Assembly (NCBI GenBank): GCA_964036195.1
Contig: OZ038457.1
Span: 18,441,147-18,505,146, forward strand
DNA from: Sphaerolaimus hirsutus
Taxonomy: Eukaryota > Nematoda > Chromadorea > Monhysterida > Sphaerolaimidae
DNA length: 64,000 nt
Direction of reading: 5' to 3'
The translations under genes were made by a program, and so were the position numbers. Shown here one piece after another: positions 8,337 through 55,486 of this stretch (within the stretch, counting starts at the first letter, position 1; each line of letters begins with the position of its first letter). The notes under the pieces are model-generated. The model saw only the letters and a program-made list of their open reading frames with translations. It was not told the origin of the DNA and did no database searches.

Positions 8337-11300
8337 ATGAGCGGAAATTCATCACCCGAAAGTGAGAAGTTCGGACATGGGTCATCAAATTTGAGGCAGC
8401 CTCATGTGGACACGGCAGCCACAACAAGCAGCAATAGAAGCAGTGAAAATGACCATTGTGATGTGGTGAGCTGGGTTTTCTTGAAATTCGTTGTATTTTT
8501 TTCTCCTTTTTTAAAGATTGAGTGGATGATTGTGTGGCAAAGGCAATAAACATGTTTGATTTGCATAGGGGCGAGGTTTTTCCTGTCTAAAAAAAATAAA
8601 ATGAACAGATTTTGTTCGAAGTATTAAGGTTCCATAACATGGAAATAGCATCCAATTAGGTAGATGCAAATCCAAAGTGTGAGTAAATCAAATCGTGATG
8701 AAAAAAATCAAATAACGGAAACTTCCCGATTCCTTGCATGATTTCTTAAAATTTTCTAATTTCATTTTGCATATGCAAACCAGTCGCTTTGACAATTGAC
8801 CAGGTGCCAGTTCCGCAAAATGAGAAGTGATAAGTGAAATGGCAAAGGCGAAGTAAAAGCGCAAAGGCGAAGTGAAATAAATGGCAAGTGAAATGGCATA
8901 AGCGAAGAGAATTACTTTTTTTCGCTTTTGCCAATTCACTTGCTGTTTCACTTCGCCTTTGCACTTTTACGTCGTCTTTGCCATTTCACGTCTCACTTCT
9001 GATTTTGCGGAACTGGCCCCTGTTTGCAAATTCCTCGTCACACCCCTCATGTTTACTTATCATCTGACAGTTTAAAAAAAGAACGAACGGTGTAGGCGCC
9101 CGAAAGAATGTGCACCACACAATCACTCAACCCAGACACAGAAAAAATACCATTTTTACCCCAAATAACCCCCACCCCCGAAATTCCCGCAGAACGGCCG
9201 GCGAACCCCCCTGGACGGTGGCATAATGCCAATAATTTACGGGCCCAATTGCAACCCGCTAATTCCCACCACCAGTGCGCCGGCGACCGCTACGCAAGAC
9301 GGTTTACTATCCGCGTTTGTGTATTATTGCAATCAGGTGAATGGAGTAGTTGCGAGGGGGGGGTGTTATGTGTGTGCATTTTGGATGAGGTGTTTTTTGG
9401 AGCTCTTTTTGTGTGTGATAATGTTGTGTTAGAAATTTTTTGGGTTTTCCCAGTGAGGTTTATTTTGCGAACAGTTTTCCCAGTGCAGACCGAAAAGAGC
9501 GGGTCGGAATAAGTTCCAACGCACAACACAATTGTGTCGCGCAGTTTTTGCGCGACACAATTGTGTTGTGCGTTGGAAATTCCGGTGAGCCAAAGAGCGA
9601 TCGCTCTTATTTCATTACTAGCCTACTGCCTCTTCCTGCGTTTGAGGTCTTGAAGAGGGGGGGGGGGGTAAATGCGTCCAGAACCTGGTAGACAAATGAA
9701 AAAATGCCAGCCACATGCCCACATTCAAACAGAGCCATTTGCATGATGATGATTTTCAATGTGCTGATTGGAAATTGTCATTTGAGTACGAGTGTTGTGT
9801 AACGTTCGCGATTGACGATAGGTACTCTGAAGATAATGTGAACATTTGTCAGATTATCCATTTGCACCTGCAAATTGATGTTCACCCAGGGTTCGGAACC
9901 ACATCGCAGTCCTTCAGGATTTTGTCAGGGAGTATCGGACATTTGTTGCAGTGCACCGCATACGCATACGCAAGCGACACAATCTGCGTGTCGCGACTAG
10001 TGACGGAAAAAGAACCAGGAAATATGGCACCGCACCGACACCGGTGCCCTTCCACAGAAATGGCACCTGGCACCATGGGCACCGGCAAAAAAATGGCACC
10101 GCACCGCACCGGCACCGGTGCTATTCTGAAAAAATAGCGCCGGCACCGAGGTGCACCGGCCAGTTGCCGGTGCTAGCACTGAAAGGCACCGCACCGGGCT
10201 GTGTTTTTAAAGTAATTATCGTGTATTTTCTTAGAAGCCGCACCTTTGGAGCTGCATATTTACACGAATTCTGTACCGATTTTGAATAAGCACATGCTGT
10301 GGACAAAATTTTACACCCTATGAAGACGTGGCCGGTGCCTTTCCCGGTGCCTTTTACCTTTTGCCCGGTGCCTTTGGCCCTGGTGCTCGCACCTTTGGCA
10401 CCAGCGATAAAATGCCCCGGTGCCAGTGCCCCGGTGCCTTTCCATCACTAGTCGCGACGACGCATTGTGCTGTAACATAAAATTGAGATCAAAGCAGCAA
10501 ATGACTGGGGTGATTTTGCCACCAGGGGACAGTACCAAACCCTGTAAACTACACATAAAATGTCAATCAAAACAAAAAAGAAAATATTTTATCACTGAAC
10601 TTTGCATGACAATTGACACTTTACTTTACATGCGTCATCACAATTGACACTTTGCATGACATTTTACATGACATTTGGCACTTTACTTTACACTTTACAG
10701 GGCTGGGATTGGCACCCGCAATGGTGGCTGGGACTAGGGTTGGAAAGTTAAAAAATTTGAGTTCGGGTATCCGGTCTAAAAGTTTGGGTTGAGTATCAAT
10801 CAGGTGCCAGTTCCAAAAAATAAGTATCGATGTTTGCTATCTTTATTACCAAATGAACCCTATGCCTTTATTGCCAAATGGACCCCCTTTTGCCATCGAT
10901 AGAACCAGTACAACTGAACACATTTTCAGGAAGAAGCAGGTGAACCCTGATATCTGACAACAATTTTGGTCAAGCATAAATAATGATGAGCATGATCTGC
11001 ATTGTGTTCAATTATATGAAATCAATATTGAACACATTTATGCACATTGGCAGCAAGCCAAATCTGATTGTTTCAAATATGAATGAAATAGTGCCAAATA
11101 AAAATATAGATAAAAAAATCAGATCCGAAAAAAATGGAAATCAGCTTAGTACTCTAGTACTTAGTACAGCTTAGGATGTAGCCAGGGGGCTGGCACCTAC
11201 CCTCCCTCCCAGGGACTGACATAAAAGATGCCAGGAATCGTTAAGGATTTGGGGAAAAATGTAGGTTTAGCTAGGTATTTTTGTAGGGTAAAGGGGTTGC

Positions 11301-43462: not shown

Positions 43463-46400
43463 CTATAATGTTTGGGCAACTAACTCTACACATTTCCCAA
43501 ATGGCAAATTGGTGAGCAGTTTGGTGATGCCCCGCTTCATGTGATAAGGCAATGATTCAATGACACTCAGCTGATCAGCGGCCACATTGAGAATGTTGTC
43601 AGTGTAGTCGCAGCTGCCCTCCACCTTGGGAAGAGTTGAAGTACATGTAAAACACTTTTCAAAAAGAAGGCATATGTGAATGACTTATTCACATTATCAC
43701 ACACAGGGTTGGTTTTATGAAAATCATTTGTATACAAATTGTATAAAAATGTATTTTATTTTAATTTTATTCTTGTTTCATTTTATTTTATTTTATTTTA
43801 TTCCAAAATAATAATAAAATAATAAAATGGACCATTTTACAAAAAATGTACAAAAATTTTACAGTAATTTTACAAAAAATCAGAATTTTGCATGCAAGGT
43901 CAGAAAAATGTGATAATTAGACCTAAACATGAAAAACGTGTGACAAATTTTTCCATTACTTTGCAAAAGTTGCATGCAGTAGGTATTGTTAGCTTAGTTG
44001 CAAATGTTAAGTTACAATTATCGATAAGAATGGTTTGCATTTTCAGTAGAAGGATTACTGGAGTGTGCTGGGCGCATTTGTAAAACATCATGCAAAGTGT
44101 CAATTGTCATGACAAATGTAGTAAAGCGTCAATTGGCATCTCAAATGTCAAGCAAAGTATAATTGTCATGACAAATGTCATGCAGAGTGTAAATTGTGTA
44201 TCTGAATCTTATGTTTTGGTATCCAAACCTTATACTTTGGTATTCAAATCTTATGTTTTTGTATCCAAATGTTCACATAAGATTTGGTTACAAAAACAAC
44301 AAGATTTGGATACAAAAGATACGATATGGATACAAAAGATAAGATTTGGATACAATTTGCTTTACAGTTTCCACTTTAATTTATATTTGTCATGACAATT
44401 GACATTTTACTTTCCATTCCATTTCATATGACATTTTGACACTTTACATGGCTTGGGACTGCCCCAGCTCCACCAATGAACAGGTTGAACTATAAACAAC
44501 GGAAAAAAACTTTTACAAAAAATAAGAATTTTTATACAATTTTCACAAAAATATTAATTTGTATACAATTTTACAAAAAAGTTACAAAAATTTGAATTTT
44601 TATACAATTTTTATTTTTATTTTGAAATTTTCCATTTTATTTTATTTTATTTTATTCTTCAATTTTCCATTAAAAAAAAAATTTATTATTCTTTTCTGAG
44701 ATTTTGCCAACCCTGATCACACACATTCATCAAATTGTGTATTTAAAAAAAATAGACCATGCCAATTCCCAATCTGGCAAGATGTGTGAATTTTCCAGTC
44801 CAAGTGCCGGTTCCGCAAGTGGAAAAGTTAAGAGTAAAGAGTTAAGAGTCGAGTAAAATGATAAGTAAGAGTAAAGTTCAAAGTTAAGAGTTGAGTAAAA
44901 TCATTCGTCGTTTTACTCAACTCTTAACTTTACTCATAACTTGTCATTTGTCATTTTACTCAACTCTTAAGTTTTAACTTTTACCTTTTCCACTTGCGGA
45001 ACTGGCCCCAGAAGCTGATCCCAACACTTGTGACGAGGAAATGTTTCAGAATAATCTATTGAAAGAGGTGAATGATTAAACTGGTCAATATCTTTATGCA
45101 ACAGCCTTCTAGCCATTTTTCACTTCACCAAATGACACCAATAAAACCTATAATAAAATATCAAATAAGTTTATAAAAAAATTGAAAAAACGATACATAA
45201 ACAAAAAGTACCTTTTGAACATAACCACAAAAAATACCAATTTATGTATTGTATGAACCTTTGGCAGAGTGCAGGGTTCTCCACAGCCAGCACAGTCATC
45301 GGGTCCACATGCGAGCTTCTCTACATCCAGAGGAAAACACACGGGCCTGCCCGACAGCGACTCAGCTGCCCGTTGGCGACACTTTGCCCTGAAGCTGCAG
45401 TAGCCGCACCTGTCGGGCAGCTGGGACCCCTCGGGCACCTTGAACAGGGTGCTCACCCTGCATTGTTGTGATCAGGTGACAGTTCCACTAAAGGTGAAGT
45501 GAAAAATTGTTTGAGAAGTGATAAGTGAAATAAGAAATGAATTAAAAAGTAAAAAACATGATAAATTAATAGAAAATGCAAAAAAAGTCAAATAGAAGAA
45601 CACTTTTTCAAAATTGAAAAGTCACTAAAAGATCTTTAGAAGTTGAAACTCAAGTGACCCTTACAAAGGGTGGTCGATGGATCCCAAATCGATGGCGCAG
45701 TGCTGCTGCAGCGTGTCCACCATATCATTGGCTGGGGTGAACCACGTGCACTTGTCTGACCAATCATTGAACTCCCCCCAAGCGGTACACTGCTCCTCAG
45801 CTGTTGGAATCGGTTCACACCTGAATTGGATTTATAATTGCACTTCTAATTAAACAACAGGTGTAAAGCACATTTCTAAAAGTGGAAATCTCATCTGTTG
45901 AGTTGCAGCCAGTCAGGTAGCTGTAAATTGTCATGAAAATTACTGTTCAAACAAAATCCTCATCTCAAATTTTGATAATTTTCAGGATTTTGCAGCCCCA
46001 ATCCTGATCCCGATCTGATACCACTATCCTGATTCTGACAATTTCTAAATTCCAATTTTTTTATCCGGGAAACTTCCAGAGTGCATTTGATGCCACTTCT
46101 CCGGCATCCAAGTGTGATTTAGACCTTTTTGTGAAAAATTAGAAAAAAAACCCTCAACACCAGAACTTTGTCCTTTATTTTTTATTTTTCCAAAAATAGT
46201 GTTCCAATTTTCAAACTGTCACAGGTTTATTTTCAGATAGCAAACCTGGAACCATCTGCAGATGGCTTGTAGCTTTCGCAGCAGCACAGCACATCGTCGC
46301 CTCCTCTATCAATGCAGTTGAATTTTGGATAACTATCAAAAACACGATTTCTTTCATCACGCCGCCATTGCTCAACATCCACTTGAACAGTGCACTGCCT

Positions 46401-48346
46401 CAGGAACAGCTGCGATTCAATGTGTATGGGTTCTTTCATTGTGATGTCACAGCAAAAAATTGTGTATTGGTGCACAGTGAAGTGTCCTGAATAGTGATGT
46501 AAAAAGCGCCAGGACTTTGACACCAAGCGCCATGGCGCTTTTCCGACCTCCAGCGCCGTGCATCTAATGGCGCCAGAGATAAATGGCGCCAAGCGCCAGA
46601 AACGCTATGGCGCTTTTACATCACTAGTGATGAAGTTGCTTCACACATACTGAAAAAAAAGGTTCGTGAAGTGCACGCTCAAGTGCCTTTTCACTGGCAG
46701 TCTGCACTAGCGATGGAAAAACGCCAGGACTTTGACGCCAAGCTCCAAAAGCGCCATGGTGCTTTTCCAAAACTCAGCGCCAAGTGCCAGAAGCCCCATG
46801 GCGTTTTTGTTTTGGCGCCAGCGCTAAGCGGAAAAATAGCGTCAAGCGCCAACAGCGCCACAGCGCTTTTTCCATCACTAGTCTGCACTTAATTATCCTT
46901 TTTTTGAAATACCTAGGTAGTTTACTCACAACACTGGCATCATACAGGAATACGTCATGTGTGTCGGAGAAGCCAGATCTCCGAAGGTGGCAGACATCAG
47001 AATACTCGTCACAGTTGGTTCGATCGATGTCGATACATCTAGGGGGTAGGTCATTTATGTATTTATGGTATGAGTCACATCATAGTTTTGGATAATACAG
47101 GTTAAAAATTTACATCTTGACTGATAATTTCTGTGATTGTTAACTGCACTGCATGCGAAAACAAATTGAAAATGTGTCAACCTATAATTGATATTAAGTA
47201 GGCTATTTTTTTCGAATACATTTTTCATAAAAATCACAAAATATCTAACACCTTTTGTGTACAACAAAAAAAATGCTTTCGTGAGCTCGTGCAAGCTGGC
47301 TGGATGCGCGTGAAGCGGCACGCTTACACATGCTTCAACAAGCATCACGACATTACATGTGAAGTGTATTCAACAAGCCTCACCTAGCTTCACCGCGCAC
47401 TTCAGGCGCTTCCAAAAGTGTGGAAGACACTTCACGACGCTGGTGCTTCCACATGCTTGACTAACATATACCTAAATATTCACATTTGCATGCCAGCGCC
47501 ATATGGAGGTACGGACGCTAGCTAAACTGTAAACTGTGTACTGGTAAACTCATGCATCGACTTCCAATGCATGTGAGTTTACCAAAATGAAGTGTCTGTC
47601 AACTGCTGTTTATGGGGATAAAGAATAACTCAGTCCAGTAAACTCAAATGCGTTCAAATCCGATTTACCGAACCGATCCAGCACACAGTTTACAGTTTAG
47701 CGTACGCACACGCAGTGCTTCGTATGTTTGTGGAAGCGCTAGCATGTGAGGTGAAGTGTCGGGTAGCATTGGCGTGAAGGCACTTCATGAAGCTTCACCG
47801 CGTTGGTGGAAGCGTGTGGAATCGCACAACATAACGAGTACACTAAATACACATACAAACATACGAGCATCCTTCTTGCATTGGGCGCTTGCGCACCCTC
47901 AGCTTGAATGAACAATGGCCGCAGCGGGCTGGCGGATCCCCACCTGGTGCCACTCCCAGACCTGTAAAATGCCCTGTAAAGTGTCAAATGTCATGCAAAG
48001 TGTCAAAAGTAATGTGAAATGCCCTCGGAAATTGGCAAACGTACGTCTGCCATTTTCCAGGGCATTTTACACGACTTTTGACACTTTACATGACATTTGC
48101 CATTTGACAGCACATTTTACAGGGTCTGGGGCTGCCACCTGGGAAGATGATATTCGGCGCTTCAAACGCGTCTATATCAAAGTTCAGCGCCTCTAGATAA
48201 ATCCTGTCTTTTGCCGTATCAAAATCGCCCCAAATGCACTCGGACCACGGGCCCCAGTCACCCCATCCGGGACAATTTCGTTGGCTACTTGCCAGCGGTG
48301 AAATTAGAGCTATGTGCATAAGCACGGTTGTGAGGGCTTTGGACAT
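43463..48346 (-). CDS. Secreted cysteine-rich protein with two related modules, seven exons, family unrecognised
   Basis: Exons in transcript order: 48346-48139, 47943-47865, 47038-46930, 46409-46246, 45820-45665, 45457-45259, 43624-43463. All six junction phases agree and give 358 aa. A signal peptide (KALTTVLMHIALISPLASS) is followed by CPGWGDWGPWSEC, which resembles the start of a thrombospondin type 1 repeat, then by a cysteine-rich body. Two modules are evident: WGDWGPWSECIW...ARCGHCSF and WGEFNDWSDKCTW...DRCGYCSFRAKC. Between them lie NCDEYSDVC, LFLRQC and GGDDVLCCC. The last exon is less cysteine-rich and ends after CVELVAQTL. Predicted location is extracellular. Intron 1 (47944-48138) is exactly one hairpin transposon. 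I do not know a named family. The exon 4 acceptor (ATCGCAG) is the least certain boundary. Confidence 0.82.
43735..44075. other. AT-rich low-complexity part of the last intron of the cysteine-rich gene
   Basis: Repeated TTTTATTTTATTTTATT, ATAATAAAATAATAAAAT and TTTTACAAAAAAT blocks; a similar stretch is at 44500-44690. No exon signal. Confidence 0.5.
44085..44466. repeat. MITE family A copy with inserted small palindrome
   Basis: Outer parts carry CATGCAAAGTGTCAATTGTC on one side and ACTTTACATGGCTTGGGACT on the other. The middle, about 44197-44355, is filled by copies of TTTGGTATCCAAACCTTAT followed by its complement ATAAGATTTGGATACAAAA. It lies in the last intron of the cysteine-rich gene. 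Confidence 0.65.
44803..45010. repeat. Hairpin MITE family B copy
   Basis: Ends AAGTGCCGGTTCCGCAAGTG and CACTTGCGGAACTGGCCCC are inverted. Arms are AAGAGTTGAGTAAAAT-type words and their complement, meeting near CATTCGTCG. Last intron of the cysteine-rich gene. Confidence 0.78.
46490..46629. repeat. MITE family E copy
   Basis: Ends AGTGATGTAAAAAGCGCCA and TGGCGCTTTTACATCACTAG are inverted repeats; the interior is GGCGC/GCGCC blocks. It lies in intron 3 of the cysteine-rich gene, next to a second copy. Confidence 0.75.
46706..46883. repeat. MITE family E copy
   Basis: Ends CTAGCGATGGAAAAACGCCA and GCGCTTTTTCCATCACTAG are inverted. It is about 75 bp from the previous copy and in the same intron. 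The interior (CCATGGTGCTTTTCC, CCATGGCGTTTTTG) suggests internal duplication. Confidence 0.75.
47283..47832. repeat. Nested hairpin repeats
   Basis: Outer sequence is rich in GAAGCGTGTGGAAG and CTTCCACATGCTTG words on both sides. Inside lies a separate MITE, 47521-47701, with ends GCTAAACTGTAAACTGTG and CACAGTTTACAGTTTAGC. All of it sits in intron 2 of the cysteine-rich gene. Confidence 0.6.
47944..48138 (-). mobile_element. Hairpin MITE family A forming an entire intron (introner-like)
   Basis: In the sense of the cysteine-rich gene it begins GTGGCAGCCCCAGACCCTGT and ends GTCTGGGAGTGGCACCAG, so the first bases are the donor and the last the acceptor. The arms are mutually complementary around an ACGTACGT centre, as in the 20621-20752 copy. 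Removing exactly these 195 bases joins exon 1 (phase 1) to exon 2 with an open, cysteine-rich frame. Both edges read CCAGGTGG, possibly an 8-bp target duplication or coincidence with the element ends. Confidence 0.85.
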
Positions 48347-49689: not shown

Positions 49690-52600
49690 CTATCCACGAA
49701 AGTATAACCCAGTGCAGACTAACTTATCTATAAAATCTCTGTGTCTGCTGCAAACATTTCCATCAAGTAAATCATATCTAGATGCACAGTTATACATACA
49801 TTTAAGAGTGGCAATGTCATTTTGCATTCTGTCTAATTTTGGGCAGGTATAGAGTATGTGGGTCACACTGCTAGGTATTTTGCAATTGTCAGTGCTACAT
49901 GCTAAACATAATTTTCTACCTGTAATCGCGTGATCGCGAAGCCCGTTATGCCGTGCGGCAAACCAGTTTAAATGAGTGTATTTTAGGCTTTTTGGACTAC
50001 ATTGACTATGTGTTTCTGGGCGTATGTCAGCAATCTTTTGGCTTTGCACTGCCTGCAGTGATGTCACACGTCTATTTTGTTCAACCATTTGTTTTAGGTT
50101 GATCTTTGTCAAACAAAGTGCTGTTTGGTTAGTGATTCTTACATGTTTACATGCCCCCCTGAATTGACTTTCTGATGTTTCACATGTTTTTGAGAGTCGG
50201 GCATTCCCATATAATTTTTTGTCTGAATTAAGCGATATTTTGAGGAGTCTTGAATTATCTAGTAAATGCATGTATCTGTGATATGTTATGACCATTTGGT
50301 GATATTTGTCAGAGGGTAAATTCCCGCCCAGGTCAAGAGTTAAACTCGCTGAACTACATGTGTTTGGCAAGCGGACACAGCGTTTCATTGTCTTGATGTA
50401 TAATTTATCCATTTTAGATAGAATTTTTGTATCCGCACCGGTGACTTCTAATCCGTACATACTTTGTGGCTCGACATAGCCCTTGTAGCATATTTTTGCA
50501 TAGTGCAAGGGCGTAACTGTCTTTTTAGAAGATAAAATTGCTAATGAGCTGAATTTCAACATTTTAGTGTAAGAGTCAAGTATATGTTTGTGGAATGGAT
50601 TATGCTCCGAGGTGATGGTTATGCCGAGGTACTTAGTCTCGTCACATTCATGTATTTCACCTTTGATTTTTTCAGCTGACCAGCCCAGTGGCCATTTCAT
50701 CTGAGTTGATCGTTCCCCCCAGCGTAGGACCATGGATTTTGATGTATTTATACTTACGTTCCAGTTCCAGGCCCAGTCACTGAAGAGGTCTAATATTTGC
50801 AGCAATCCAAGTTCTGTATTTGACGTTAAACACACGTCATCTGCAAAGAATAATCCAGGGATTTTGCTTGTATTTTTGTCCAATTTCGCACCTAGTCCTG
50901 ACTCCTGAAGTATGTGTGCCAAGTCGTGCATGTAAATGGCATACAGTGTTGGGCTCAAGGCACAACCTTGCGCAACTCCATAAGGGTAATCAAGGTCTTC
51001 ACTTGTATAGTCAGCATATGTCATTTTTACCTTAATATTGGAGTAGGCATTAGCAATCGCTGTTACCAGTTTGCTTGGTATACCCATATCCATCATTTTT
51101 TCCCACAATTTGTCTCTAACAACACGGTCGAATGCCTTCTCCGCATCCACAAAACATGTGTAAAATTTATTACCATTAGCCTTTGCATAGCTATTGCATG
51201 TTTTTAGTATTTGAACATTATCACATGTTCTTCTGTTTGGTCGGAAACCCCCCTGCAGTTCTGTGAAGACATTGGTTTCTTCACAAATTGTTATTAAACG
51301 CTTATTTAAAAGTGTCATGTATAGCTTCTTAATGTTACATGAGATTCCTAGGGTTCGGTAATTTTTCATATTAGATTTTGGACCCTTCTTGTGAAGTAAA
51401 ACCATTTTGCAAATTTTTGCTTCTTGTGGGATCTCTGACCCATTCAGCCATGAGTTGTACATCAACCGTAAATTTTCTTTGAATGATACACTCATATGCT
51501 TAAAGTACTCGTGATGAATGTCAGTAGTCCCTGGTGATTTGTTATTTTTTAAATGTTTGATTGCATTATCCAGTTCCGACATTGAGAATTCTGAGGTGGC
51601 ACCTGTATCGATTAGTACAGACGTGTCTAGTAATTTATCAACTGTTGGACATTCTGTGTTCCCTGGGTTCAGTTTCATAACTGTAGCCCAAGCTTTTTTC
51701 ATTTCTACGTTCATTTCAGAGTGAGACTTTATCGGATCACCGTTCTCGTTTTCCATTGTGTGTACTATCCCCAAGTTAACATTTTTGTTTTTGTTCACAT
51801 GTTTATAGATGTGATTAATGTTTTTATGACTTGCTGAAACCAATTTATCCATAAGTTTTCCATTATTCTCCCTTTCTTTTCGCTTTTTTACCTGGCGTAA
51901 TTCCGCTCTAAGTCTTGTTTGATTTTGTTTATGTTGTAGCTCCCCTGTTTTCTTAAATTTGCGGCGTTCCTTAGCCATACGTCGATGCAGTTTTTGGATT
52001 TCTCTGTTAGGCCTATTACCTGAGCCTGTGGTTAATTGTTTGCGCCCAGTTGTAGACTTAATTGCTGCTTCATGAACACTTTTTATCATATCTGTGTAAT
52101 CTGTCGCATGTGCATTTTCTGTGCATGTATGAAATATCTCCCATTCATCTTGAGTTGGTTTTAATATTTTAGCCTTTGGTTTTATTTTATCTGGGTTCAT
52201 GTTGATTTTCATGATTATAGCATGATGGTCTGAGATTAAAGGGCATTGTTCACCACAGTCATCTATGCACCCTGTTATGTCAATATCTGCTGAGGAGAAA
52301 CAAAAATCAATTATCGATTCAGCATTTTTTCTTTCAAATGTCCACAGACCTTTTAAGCGTTCATTGAGCAGGATTGGTGTATATTCACATATCCAATCCC
52401 TGATTAATTTTCCATTTTCATTCACATCCTGTTTGTTTCCCAATATACCTAATTCATCGAATCCAATGTGACCGTTGAAATCCCCTATCAATATTGTTAT
52501 CTCATTGTTCTGTCTGGATCGCACAAGAAGGTGTCCTAGTGTATCTAATATATCACTGTTTAATTTTTGAACTTCCATCGATTTTTTTGCCTTGCTGTTA

Positions 52601-53094
52601 TTTTCTAAATAACAGGCAAAGATGTTATAAGCTTGCCCATGGTTTGTTAATATGCGAACACCTGAGATATAATCAGAATGTGAAGTAGTGTTCACTGTGT
52701 ATCGCAATGTATTTTTCAGATACATTGAAATACCGCCTGTTTTTTTGCCACTCTTAAATGTATGTACAGCTGTGTAACCCTTCAATGAACCTGCATCAGT
52801 AGCACACATCAAGCTTGTTTCGACAAAGCAAAGCAGATCTGCAGCAGTGTTTGAAATAGCAGTCAAAACTTCACTCCACTTTCCTTTCAATGACTGCGTG
52901 TTTTGGTACAACATAGTAAGACCAGCTAGGACATCCAATGTGCCATTTTCTGAGTCAATAGAACAAAGCGATTCTAAATGTGTAGCATGTACTAACTTGC
53001 ACATGTATAAGAGTAAGCATATCCTAACAAAATAGGAGCCTTGAGATCGAAAACCACACCGAGCAGTGCATGACAATCTTTCAAAGTAAGACAT
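49690..53094 (-). CDS. LINE (non-LTR retrotransposon) endonuclease-reverse transcriptase, intact
   Basis: From ATG 53094 the frame runs 1134 aa to the stop without interruption. An AP-type endonuclease comes first: YQNTQSLKGKW, CFVETSL, GDFNGH near residue 204 and SDHHAI near 290. The reverse transcriptase follows: KSPGTTDIHHEYF near 523, FVDAEKAFDRV near 650, YGVAQGCALSPTLY, then the active-site FFADDVCL near 749 and TKYLGITI. A C-terminal cysteine/histidine motif, CLACSTDNC then THILYTCP, is near residue 1063. Such proteins nick target DNA and copy their own RNA into it. No separate ORF1 (gag-like) protein was recognised. The frame stays open far upstream, to 54549, across a tandem array; I treat 53094 as the start because motifs begin only after it. 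The clade was not assigned. Lack of stops or frameshifts suggests recent activity. Confidence 0.93.
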   Translation of the reverse strand: MSYFERLSCTARCGFRSQGSYFVRICLLLYMCKLVHATHLESLCSIDSENGTLDVLAGLTMLYQNTQSLKGKWSEVLTAISNTAADLLCFVETSLMCATDAGSLKGYTAVHTFKSGKKTGGISMYLKNTLRYTVNTTSHSDYISGVRILTNHGQAYNIFACYLENNSKAKKSMEVQKLNSDILDTLGHLLVRSRQNNEITILIGDFNGHIGFDELGILGNKQDVNENGKLIRDWICEYTPILLNERLKGLWTFERKNAESIIDFCFSSADIDITGCIDDCGEQCPLISDHHAIIMKINMNPDKIKPKAKILKPTQDEWEIFHTCTENAHATDYTDMIKSVHEAAIKSTTGRKQLTTGSGNRPNREIQKLHRRMAKERRKFKKTGELQHKQNQTRLRAELRQVKKRKERENNGKLMDKLVSASHKNINHIYKHVNKNKNVNLGIVHTMENENGDPIKSHSEMNVEMKKAWATVMKLNPGNTECPTVDKLLDTSVLIDTGATSEFSMSELDNAIKHLKNNKSPGTTDIHHEYFKHMSVSFKENLRLMYNSWLNGSEIPQEAKICKMVLLHKKGPKSNMKNYRTLGISCNIKKLYMTLLNKRLITICEETNVFTELQGGFRPNRRTCDNVQILKTCNSYAKANGNKFYTCFVDAEKAFDRVVRDKLWEKMMDMGIPSKLVTAIANAYSNIKVKMTYADYTSEDLDYPYGVAQGCALSPTLYAIYMHDLAHILQESGLGAKLDKNTSKIPGLFFADDVCLTSNTELGLLQILDLFSDWAWNWNVSINTSKSMVLRWGERSTQMKWPLGWSAEKIKGEIHECDETKYLGITITSEHNPFHKHILDSYTKMLKFSSLAILSSKKTVTPLHYAKICYKGYVEPQSMYGLEVTGADTKILSKMDKLYIKTMKRCVRLPNTCSSASLTLDLGGNLPSDKYHQMVITYHRYMHLLDNSRLLKISLNSDKKLYGNARLSKTCETSESQFRGACKHVRITNQTALCLTKINLKQMVEQNRRVTSLQAVQSQKIADIRPETHSQCSPKSLKYTHLNWFAARHNGLRDHAITGRKLCLACSTDNCKIPSSVTHILYTCPKLDRMQNDIATLKCMYNCASRYDLLDGNVCSRHRDFIDKLVCTGLYFRG

Positions 53095-53249
53095 TGTTAA
53101 AACCGTCAAATAATAAATTGAAATAAAATGACTAAAAATCGTTAAATTGTGAAATAAAAGTTCCACAAAAAGTATTATTGCTCTCAAAAATATCCCCACT
53201 TCCCTGTTTGGGTTAAACACTACACTAGGGGTTGCATGTTTTGCAGTGC

Positions 53250-54270
53250 CCCATGTATGTGTTTGCCAGTTCTCACTGCATTTTACATGACTTTTAACTC
53301 TTTGCAGGACATTTGACACTTTACAGGGCAGTTTACAATGTTTTGCAGTGCCCCATGTATGTGTATGCCATTTCGCGCTGCATTTTACATGACTTTTGAC
53401 AATTTGCAGGACATTTGACACTTGGCAGACCAATTTACAAACTTCAAAAGTGCCTCTCATATTTGCTTGGCATTTTACAAGACACTTTGCATGACTGTTG
53501 ACATTTTGCAGGACATTTGAAACATTATAGAACAGTTTACAAAGTTTGGGAGTGCCCCTTGTATGTATTTGCCATTTTGCATAACATTTTACATGACTTA
53601 TGACACTTTGCATGACACTTGTCACTTTACAGGAGTGTTTAGAAACTTCAGAAATGCCTCTCATGGTTGCTTGGCATTTTACAAGACATTTTACATGACT
53701 TTTGACATTTTGCAGAACATTTGAAACATTATAGAACAGTTTACAAAGTTTGGGAGTACCCCTAGTATTTGTTTGCCATTTTACATAACATTTTAAATGA
53801 CTTTTGACACTTTGCATGACACTTGACACTTTACAGGAGTGTTTAGAAACTTCAGAAGCACCTCTCATGTTTGCTTGGCATTTTACAAGACACTTTACAT
53901 GACTTTTGACATTTTGCAGGACATTTGAAACAGTATAGAATAGTTTACAAAGTTTGGGAGTACCCCTAGTACATGTTTGCCATTTTACATAACATGTTAA
54001 ATGACTTTTGACACTTTGCATGACATTTGACACTTTACAGGAGTGCTTAGAAATTTCAGAAGCGCCTCTCATGTTTGCTTGGCATTTTACAAGACATTTT
54101 ACATGACTTTTGACATTTTGCAGGACATTTGAAACATTATAGAACCGTTTACAAAGTTTGGGAGTACCCCTAGTACGTGTTTGCCATTTTACATAACATT
54201 TTAAATGACTTTTGACACTTTGCATGACATTTGACACTTTACAGGAGTGTTTACAAACTATGAACTCTAT
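53250..54270 (-). repeat. 204-bp tandem array upstream of the LINE
   Basis: About four and a half units of about 204 bp, each of two related halves of about 102 bp. Landmarks such as TTTACATGACTTTTGACATT recur near 53690, 53894 and 54098. The words GACACTTTGCATGACATTTG and ACATTTGACACTTTACAGG are the same as the core of MITE family A. Because 204 is a multiple of three, one frame stays open throughout, giving a spurious repetitive protein. Position just 5' of the LINE ORF suggests promoter monomers, as in some mammalian L1 elements; this is inference. Confidence 0.85.
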
Positions 54271-55486
54271 AGAATTCATGTCCAGAGGGACACCGCGCAC
54301 ACGTCTTCCGATCACCGCATACATGCACAAGCTGTGTATCGACATTTTTTCGTGTTTTGCTCGTCTGGAAAACACTACAACCGCTGGTAGTATCGGTGTC
54401 TGTATTGTTTGCACCATGGTACACATTCTACCCACCAACATCGATAGCATGTCAAAATCAGACCCAAAAAGTAAAATGCACACTTCAACAGTCACTGGTG
54501 GACGTTTGTCCATCGCGTTACCGATTGTACACACTGATATCGTCAACACATAACGCCACCGACCCGCCTGACTGCGCTCGTTTCGTGCTTTGTCGTTTTT
54601 TGTCGTTTTTACACGCTAAAAAAGATTTGGATACAGGTTGTAAATCATTCACTTGGCAACGTGCCAAAAAATCGATTTTGGGTAGCAGCGTTTGACCCAG
54701 AAAGGCATCGATGCCAAAGCTTGCGATAAGCGGTAATGAGCTCTTTGTGCGAGCAGTTTCACCCATCGGGGGTGTATAGAGTGCTAGAATAACCATGTTG
54801 AATCGTTCTCGTAACGTTTCAGGACATGTTCTAGGCAACTCTAAGTTGAAGACAGAGGCCTGTCGGAGGCATGTACAATCAACTTTTTGGCACGATGCCA
54901 AGAGAACGAAAAACGCCTTTGGAAGCTCAACCCGACTTCCTCGGGACGTCAGACGTTCAGAAAAGGGCCATTGAGGTCCACGCACTACGTCGATCACCAG
55001 CAAACCCACCACAAACACGCAGAACAGTCGCCGCAGCCTGTATAGTTGTCACAAGGCAAGAAAAAAAGATGTCGTTTTTTCTTTTTTTTTTCATTTACGT
55101 CTTTTACATTTTACAGGGTCATTTAGAGGGTCTGTGACTGGCAGATCGAGATTCAATTCTTGCATGCAGCGCAGCAACTGTGAGCTGTCTGGCACGATGG
55201 GCAGGTGGGGCGGAATTAAAAAAAGAAATCTGGGAAATCTGGAATCTTGCCCAACCATTCAATGATTTTTGCATATTTGCAGCATTTGCATATGTGCAAG
55301 TAGCACCATCAGAAACTCTCACATGCATTGTTTCAACGCGCTTTGCCTGTAGTCGTGGATCGGGGGAATTGGAGCACAATTTCAAAAAAATTTAACATCA
55401 CTTTTGGATACATTAAAAAAAACAAATGTGAAATCGTGTGCGAGCAAATACTGTAGGACACGAAAACAGACACTTAACTGACGGCA
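54271..55486. other. Unassigned region with balanced base composition
   Basis: 54271-55060 is less AT-rich than its surroundings and is open in several frames on both strands, including 54518-55018 on the minus strand. None shows a motif I recognise. It may be the 5' part of the LINE, an old transposon or a lost exon. 55095-55145 carries a family A arm (TTACAGGGTCATTTAGAGGG). The GAR1 promoter should lie just before 55487. Confidence 0.45.

Follow-up and report, generated by a model that had tools for sequence, protein, structure and literature searches.

The cysteine-rich gene on the minus strand of the window (the whole stretch of 64,000 nucleotides of Sphaerolaimus hirsutus DNA analysed here) is, judged by its predicted protein, a homolog of Trichuris P43. 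Its first exons matched P43 (PDB 6qix) with E = 1.5e-17 in a phmmer search, and a longer gene model, the exon edges of which are partly guessed, matched the same entry with E = 5.2e-41 over query 20-322. A Pfam search with the P43-like exons gave no match, whereas the PDB sequence search did. Of the dorylipophorins, the family that includes P43, the excerpted part of the review PMC13368735 states that they are known in Dorylaimia (clade I nematodes) alone.

The predicted intron 1 of this gene has a length of 195 bp (Table 1). In the minus-strand reading, exon 1 ends with ...TTCCCAG and is followed by GTGGCAGCC...GGGAGTGGCAC, by CAG, and then by GTGGGGATC..., with exon 2 beginning at GTGGGG. 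Joining the exons at the intron ends would retain phase 1, as the sequence-only reading had predicted, and the resulting protein is collinear with P43 (PDB 6qix). If the element occupying the intron were left unspliced, the frame would meet a stop codon inside it. A second in-frame donor, GTAAAA, is located 18 nt inside the element in this copy, so the exact donor in the P43-like gene may be either the GT at the edge or the internal GTAAAA. In the second module of the gene (window positions 45148-45820, minus strand), a nearby intron that is unlike the element lies ~9 codons away according to an alignment made by eye.

Table 1. Features of the P43-like gene and of the element in its predicted intron 1. 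Positions are those of the window.
Feature	Position	Strand	Description and basis
Exon 1, P43-like (dorylipophorin-like) gene	48139..48346	-	Signal-peptide-like start, predicted start codon; phmmer match to 6qix_A, query 20-120
Predicted intron 1, P43-like gene	47944..48138	-	Complete hairpin element followed by a single target copy (CAG); GT...AG ends
Exon 2, P43-like gene, 3' end approximate	47865..47943	-	Residues ...GDPPARCGHCSFKLRVRKRP... in the 6qix alignment
Further exons, P43-like gene, including second module copy	45252..47038 (approximate)	-	Translation and phmmer; exon edges approximate
Palindromic element, 192 bp	47947..48138	-	GG-end-first orientation; aligned with 20 copies from the genome and the family consensus, refined edges
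Target-site copy 1 (CAG), exon 1 end	48139..48141	-	Sequence; CWG is the family pattern
Target-site copy 2 (CAG), predicted 3' splice acceptor	47944..47946	-	Sequence; CWG is the family pattern
Hairpin arms	47961-48032 / 48052-48123		72 nt, 85% complementary, 19-nt spacer; repeat finding

Structure and edges of the palindromic element

The family consensus is an almost perfect palindrome of 192 bp, with one end reading GGGGCA (GG end) and the other GTGCCA (GT end). Its predicted RNA fold, including one copy of the target-site duplication (TSD), reaches −169 kcal/mol, and the fold of the 195-bp intron in the window reaches −123 kcal/mol (z = −15.5 relative to 200 shuffled sequences). The 20 aligned genomic copies diverge from the consensus by 4–8% and the window copy by ~9%. 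The window copy is inserted with its GG end first, but its second base has changed from G to T (GTGGCA), which would supply a GT donor despite this reversed orientation.

The sequence-only reading had described the intron as coinciding end to end with a hairpin element that provides both splice sites. One whole copy does fill the intron, but the mobile unit comprises only 192 bp, and the intron closes with 3 bp that are a copy of the target. Hence, the GT donor lies within the element, whereas the AG acceptor is not carried by it and stems from the duplicated CAG target. The 8-bp target duplication that had been proposed, CCAGGTGG, proved to be a coincidence: it consists of a C, the actual 3-bp duplication CAG, and GTGG, which represents element bases on one side and exon bases on the other.

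The family pattern was derived from 100 TIR pairs taken from the fetched loci and the window, some of which are chance or damaged pairs. Their edge triplets were CTG/CTG in 26 and CAG/CAG in 22 cases; among the remaining 52 pairs, 24 differed by one base, 15 by two and 11 by three, and two showed another matching triplet. The frequent CTG/CTG and CAG/CAG edges indicate that the target duplication is a 3-bp CWG.

Family copies and their coding context

At least six more copies had been claimed for the window, and more than six other places indeed match the element, mostly in part (for example near 10657, 14645, 17587, 20684, 26704 and 27468, and in an array at 53261-54245). The tandem array, which extends over 53238-54257 with a 102-bp unit (10 copies) or a 204-bp unit (4.8 copies) and is similar to the hairpin arm of the family, looks like a satellite grown from the element. 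It is located inside a single open frame of 1,641 codons on the minus strand (49690-54615) with endonuclease/reverse-transcriptase-like motifs, which, judged by these motifs, we take to be a non-LTR retrotransposon.

The genome search covered 348 Mb in 762 contigs. Of 4,613 first-look candidates, 40 places were scored, and the 39 apart from the window copy showed 87–91% identity. The exact 21-base TIR core occurred 2,048 times in the genome (reversed-pattern control: 0), and exact element ends comprised 1,900 cases of CTG and 2,183 cases of CAG directly followed by GT (4,083 GT ends in all). The compared copies mostly diverge by ~4–10% from the family consensus, so that the burst is no longer entirely new, and the notion of a live or recent source of introns holds only in part.

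Filtering of 117 element candidates left 105 with acceptable ends and 96 after exclusion of duplicate junctions. The contig-order sample comprised 41 of these 96 copies, located in L048-L098 within 7.2 Mb of the start of contig C1 and not ranked by likeness. Based on a codon model, 22 of the 41 copies had coding sequence on both sides, compared with 53 of 735 control points located in L048-L077 (p = 1.3e-13). The model was trained on frames picked by Pfam or homology and on its own confident calls, and each element was left out when it was scored. Multiplying the 4,083 GT ends by the share of copies with coding sequence on both sides gives ~2,200; lowered for partial copies, this extrapolation, which is based on part of one contig, suggests one to two thousand intron-like copies genome-wide.

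The orientation of the element relative to the gene was determined blindly for the 89 of the 96 elements that have exactly one GT end, with the gene strand called from codon usage and the element ends ignored. Of the 39 coding copies, 35 had the GT end upstream, as opposed to 28 of 50 with a weak call and 14 of 28 with next to no coding signal. These 35 cases split into 19 of 19 from the contig-order sample and 16 of 20 from the similarity-ranked loci and the window; the other four of the 39 coding copies had the non-GT end upstream. The window copy itself, with a codon margin of 2.2, fell below the threshold for a blind call and is not among the 39. Codon scoring placed two copies whose strand is known from Pfam (L056 and L011_2004) on the wrong strand, both with sub-threshold margins (0.4 and 0.8). 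In a wider table the GT end was upstream in 36 of 40 copies, where two GG-TG copies that may be strand miscalls were kept in the counts. A bias of this kind in coding copies is predicted by selection for a splice donor, and would be unexpected for disruptive insertion or for removal driven purely by the hairpin.

Joins in other genes and acceptor letters

After removal of the element and 3 nt, the best frames, chosen independently in the two flanks, agreed for 28 of the 36 copies examined (p = 6e-8) and disagreed for eight. Since excision of any insertion restores the frame, in-frame removal alone proves only that the insertions occurred in exons; the case for splicing rests on the age of the copies, their orientation and their enrichment in coding sequence. 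A calmodulin-like gene (L026) is interrupted between ...REAFQ and VFDKDKDGY by a copy with GT...CAG edges. Compared by eye, this gene is ~80% identical to calmodulin over 80 residues and is therefore perhaps a paralog. GRK2/3 (L013) is interrupted between MADLEAVLQ and DVSYLMAMEKS by a copy with GT...TAG edges.

A Pfam domain extended across the join with E ≤ 1e-3 in seven of 30 joined frames. These domains were a GPCR (L011), LBP/BPI C-terminal (L020), Med8 (L037), CHGN at two joins of the same locus (L075), TSP1 (L016, also in a rerun on the exact letters) and vinculin (L025), the last under Pfam's own cut-off. No join-spanning domain at this threshold was found in the other 23 frames, which included domains on one side only (LIM in L014, LRR in L056, and 7tm_1 as far as the join in L011_316) and weaker matches (C8 in L015, WD40 in L028, VWD in L077). 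A search with the Med8 family gave no signal, and neither did its controls. Copies that fill predicted introns from edge to edge were seen in the P43-like gene, the calmodulin-like gene and GRK2/3 as well as at the seven Pfam-tested joins.

Two loci contain several copies. At a rhodopsin-family GPCR locus (L011, 316-2195, with a near copy in L029), three copies are found within ~2 kb, all GT-first with respect to the gene; two are located at 7tm_1 sequence, whereas for the third, which lies between them, no domain was recognized and the flanking frames did not agree. At the CHGN-family locus (L075, 1494-2701), two copies lie 1 kb apart, one with GT-AG and one with GT-TG ends, each within the domain.

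The last two letters of the 36 GT-first coding copies were AG in 21, TG in 12, CG in two and GG in one, the single GG-ending copy becoming AG if its edge is moved by one base. AG was over-represented (21 of 33, p = 0.012) relative to the coding background of CAG 54 : CTG 78, and CAG slightly outnumbered CTG in front of GT genome-wide (2,183 vs 1,900, p = 1e-5). The median divergence was 7.3% for non-AG copies (n = 15) and 8.1% for AG copies (n = 19; p = 0.29). Three TG-ending copies are located in clear domains (GPCR, Med8 and CHGN). For the TG-ending copies, either TG acceptors work, or another route of removal exists, or the copies are tolerated unspliced. Splicing in C. elegans can reportedly dispense with AG, as stated in 1993. 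Among GT-oriented copies with unmatched TSDs in the fetched loci, which are few, seven had CTG...CAG and four CAG...CTG, and this is the direction expected under selection for AG at the 3' edge.

Alternative pairs of splice sites were also considered. The internal pair GTAAAA...TTTTACAG was rejected as a general rule, as it leaves 37 nt and breaks the frame (counted by hand on aligned ends), and so was the combination of the edge GT with TTTTACAG in CTG copies, where 19 nt remain out of frame. For CAG copies, including the P43-like gene, the internal donor combined with the edge acceptor is a possible alternative that would leave 18 nt in frame. The edge donor is favoured because the alignments of the calmodulin-like gene and GRK2/3 show no insertion.

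Probable origin and proposed removal of the element

The family is probably a NuwaI-type (PIF/Harbinger-like) MITE, as suggested by its ends and target sites. According to the NuwaI part of PMC4482050, this group of the PIF/Harbinger-ISL2EU-Spy (PHIS) superfamily creates CWG duplications, has TIRs of 12–61 bp that usually start with GGG, and has been reported in 12 genomes of bony fish and in those of a beetle, a crustacean, a mollusc and an anthozoan, 16 animal genomes in all; introns do not appear in that section. The element shares with NuwaI the CWG duplication (exact in 48 of the 100 TIR pairs). Of its two ends, one (GGGGCA) starts like most NuwaI TIRs and the other (GTGCCA) does not, and the TIR length given for NuwaI is a further point of difference. 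If GGG is the ancestral state, the GT end may be a derived splice donor. Mobilization was presumably achieved by a NuwaI/PIF-Harbinger-like transposase.

Taken together, the letters of the genome make it very probable that intron 1 of the P43-like gene is an introner: a palindromic DNA transposon, itself non-autonomous, would have entered an exon at a CAG and would be excised by the spliceosome. The element would insert at CWG and duplicate these 3 bp. In the sense orientation it would start with GT and thereby place a donor directly behind the CWG of the exon, and at a CAG target the second copy would close the insert with AG as the acceptor. As the second CAG copy ends the insert in this manner, splicing would restore the original frame exactly. 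We infer that transcripts are spliced at the element edges by the spliceosome. The introner reading, already put forward from the window alone, gained weight from the in-frame removal at unrelated coding sites (calmodulin-like gene, GRK2/3), the coding enrichment, and the GT-end bias, which was confined to coding copies. Further traits by which introners are recognized were found: the family has many genomic copies that form edge-to-edge predicted introns in unrelated genes, it shows TSD and TIR, and its splice sites are carried or recruited in the matching orientation, although AG is present in only 21 of the 36 GT-first coding copies.

Alternatively, the copies could be ordinary MITE insertions that are not removed from exons, so that the host genes or alleles are dead or polymorphic. 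Some loci are in fact near-identical duplicates and perhaps haplotypes (L011/L029), the calmodulin-like gene may be one among several paralogs, and part of the copies have no AG end. However, the copies are mostly 4–10% diverged and yet their flanking frames are open and in phase, the GT orientation bias is restricted to coding copies, the CHGN locus contains two copies in one domain and the GPCR locus two beside 7tm_1, and GRK2/3 is among the interrupted genes. We regard this explanation as very unlikely.

Inverted repeats trigger SOS splicing, and independence from orientation and splice sites is one of its defining features. The hairpin might accordingly mark the element for excision from the mRNA independently of the spliceosome, followed by RTCB ligation, and the splice-site letters would be irrelevant. 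The element is an extreme hairpin, and its copies have diverged to the same degree whether or not they end in AG. As in the SOS splicing of DNA transposons outlined in the excerpt of the review PMC13247085, in which transposable elements are cut from animal mRNAs, a transposon would be removed from mRNA. Hairpin excision should, however, ignore orientation, whereas 35 of the 39 coding copies have the GT end upstream and this bias is seen in coding copies only. Moreover, AG is more frequent than the coding background would predict, and CAG outnumbers CTG in front of GT throughout the genome. Orientation and splice-site letters thus matter here, in contrast to SOS splicing, which makes such a route highly unlikely. 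Least plausible of all, and barely credible, is an older intron at the P43-like site that was later filled or replaced by a member of an intron-dwelling rather than intron-making family: the second module does have an intron nearby (~9 codons off by eye), but the element and its TSD constitute the entire intron from edge to edge, the target duplication is composed of exon bases, and the calmodulin-like gene and GRK2/3 are interrupted in the same way by other copies.

With removal by the spliceosome as the preferred reading, the element resembles the introners in the excerpted survey of Gozashti et al. 2022 (PMC9860276) in being multi-copy, occupying whole introns and bearing TSD and TIR marks. 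It also resembles the arrangement in the legend of Fig. 2C of that survey, where the element carries the 5' site and the 3' site is co-opted from the target copy. It differs from the introners in these parts of the survey in its 3-bp CWG duplication, its complete palindrome and the lack of AG in approximately one third of the GT-first coding copies. The survey excerpt lists introners in only two animal groups, and the string “nematod” is absent from its main text. The excerpt of a paper on nematode intron gain (PMC9169325) cites introners as an example from elsewhere, and a search of the open-access literature found no paper with nematode introners in its title. Like the non-canonical introns of larvacean tunicates in the excerpt of PMC13326754, the present ones would be linked to transposons and depart from GT-AG; unlike those, they occur in another host group, and the donor stays GT while only the acceptor varies. 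Introners as a kind are known; as far as open papers show, what is new is the host group, the probable NuwaI-like origin and the large number of non-AG copies.

The source of new introns is still an open question, and in animals hardly any active one is believed to exist. Here, thousands of copies are found in a nematode, and the choice of the CWG target alone determines whether an AG is present, which allows intron birth to be tested at each copy separately. Together, the copies with CAG and those with CTG represent a natural experiment on what the animal spliceosome needs at the 3' splice site. In its boldest form, which we put forward tentatively and consider somewhat doubtful, the proposal is that approximately one to two thousand introns in this nematode were made by a NuwaI-type MITE, a palindrome that brings its own GT donor, and that roughly one third of these introns, with CTG instead of CAG as target, are spliced as GT-TG. 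If true, this would be a large and fairly young class of animal introns without the AG rule, for which a donor and a hairpin suffice.
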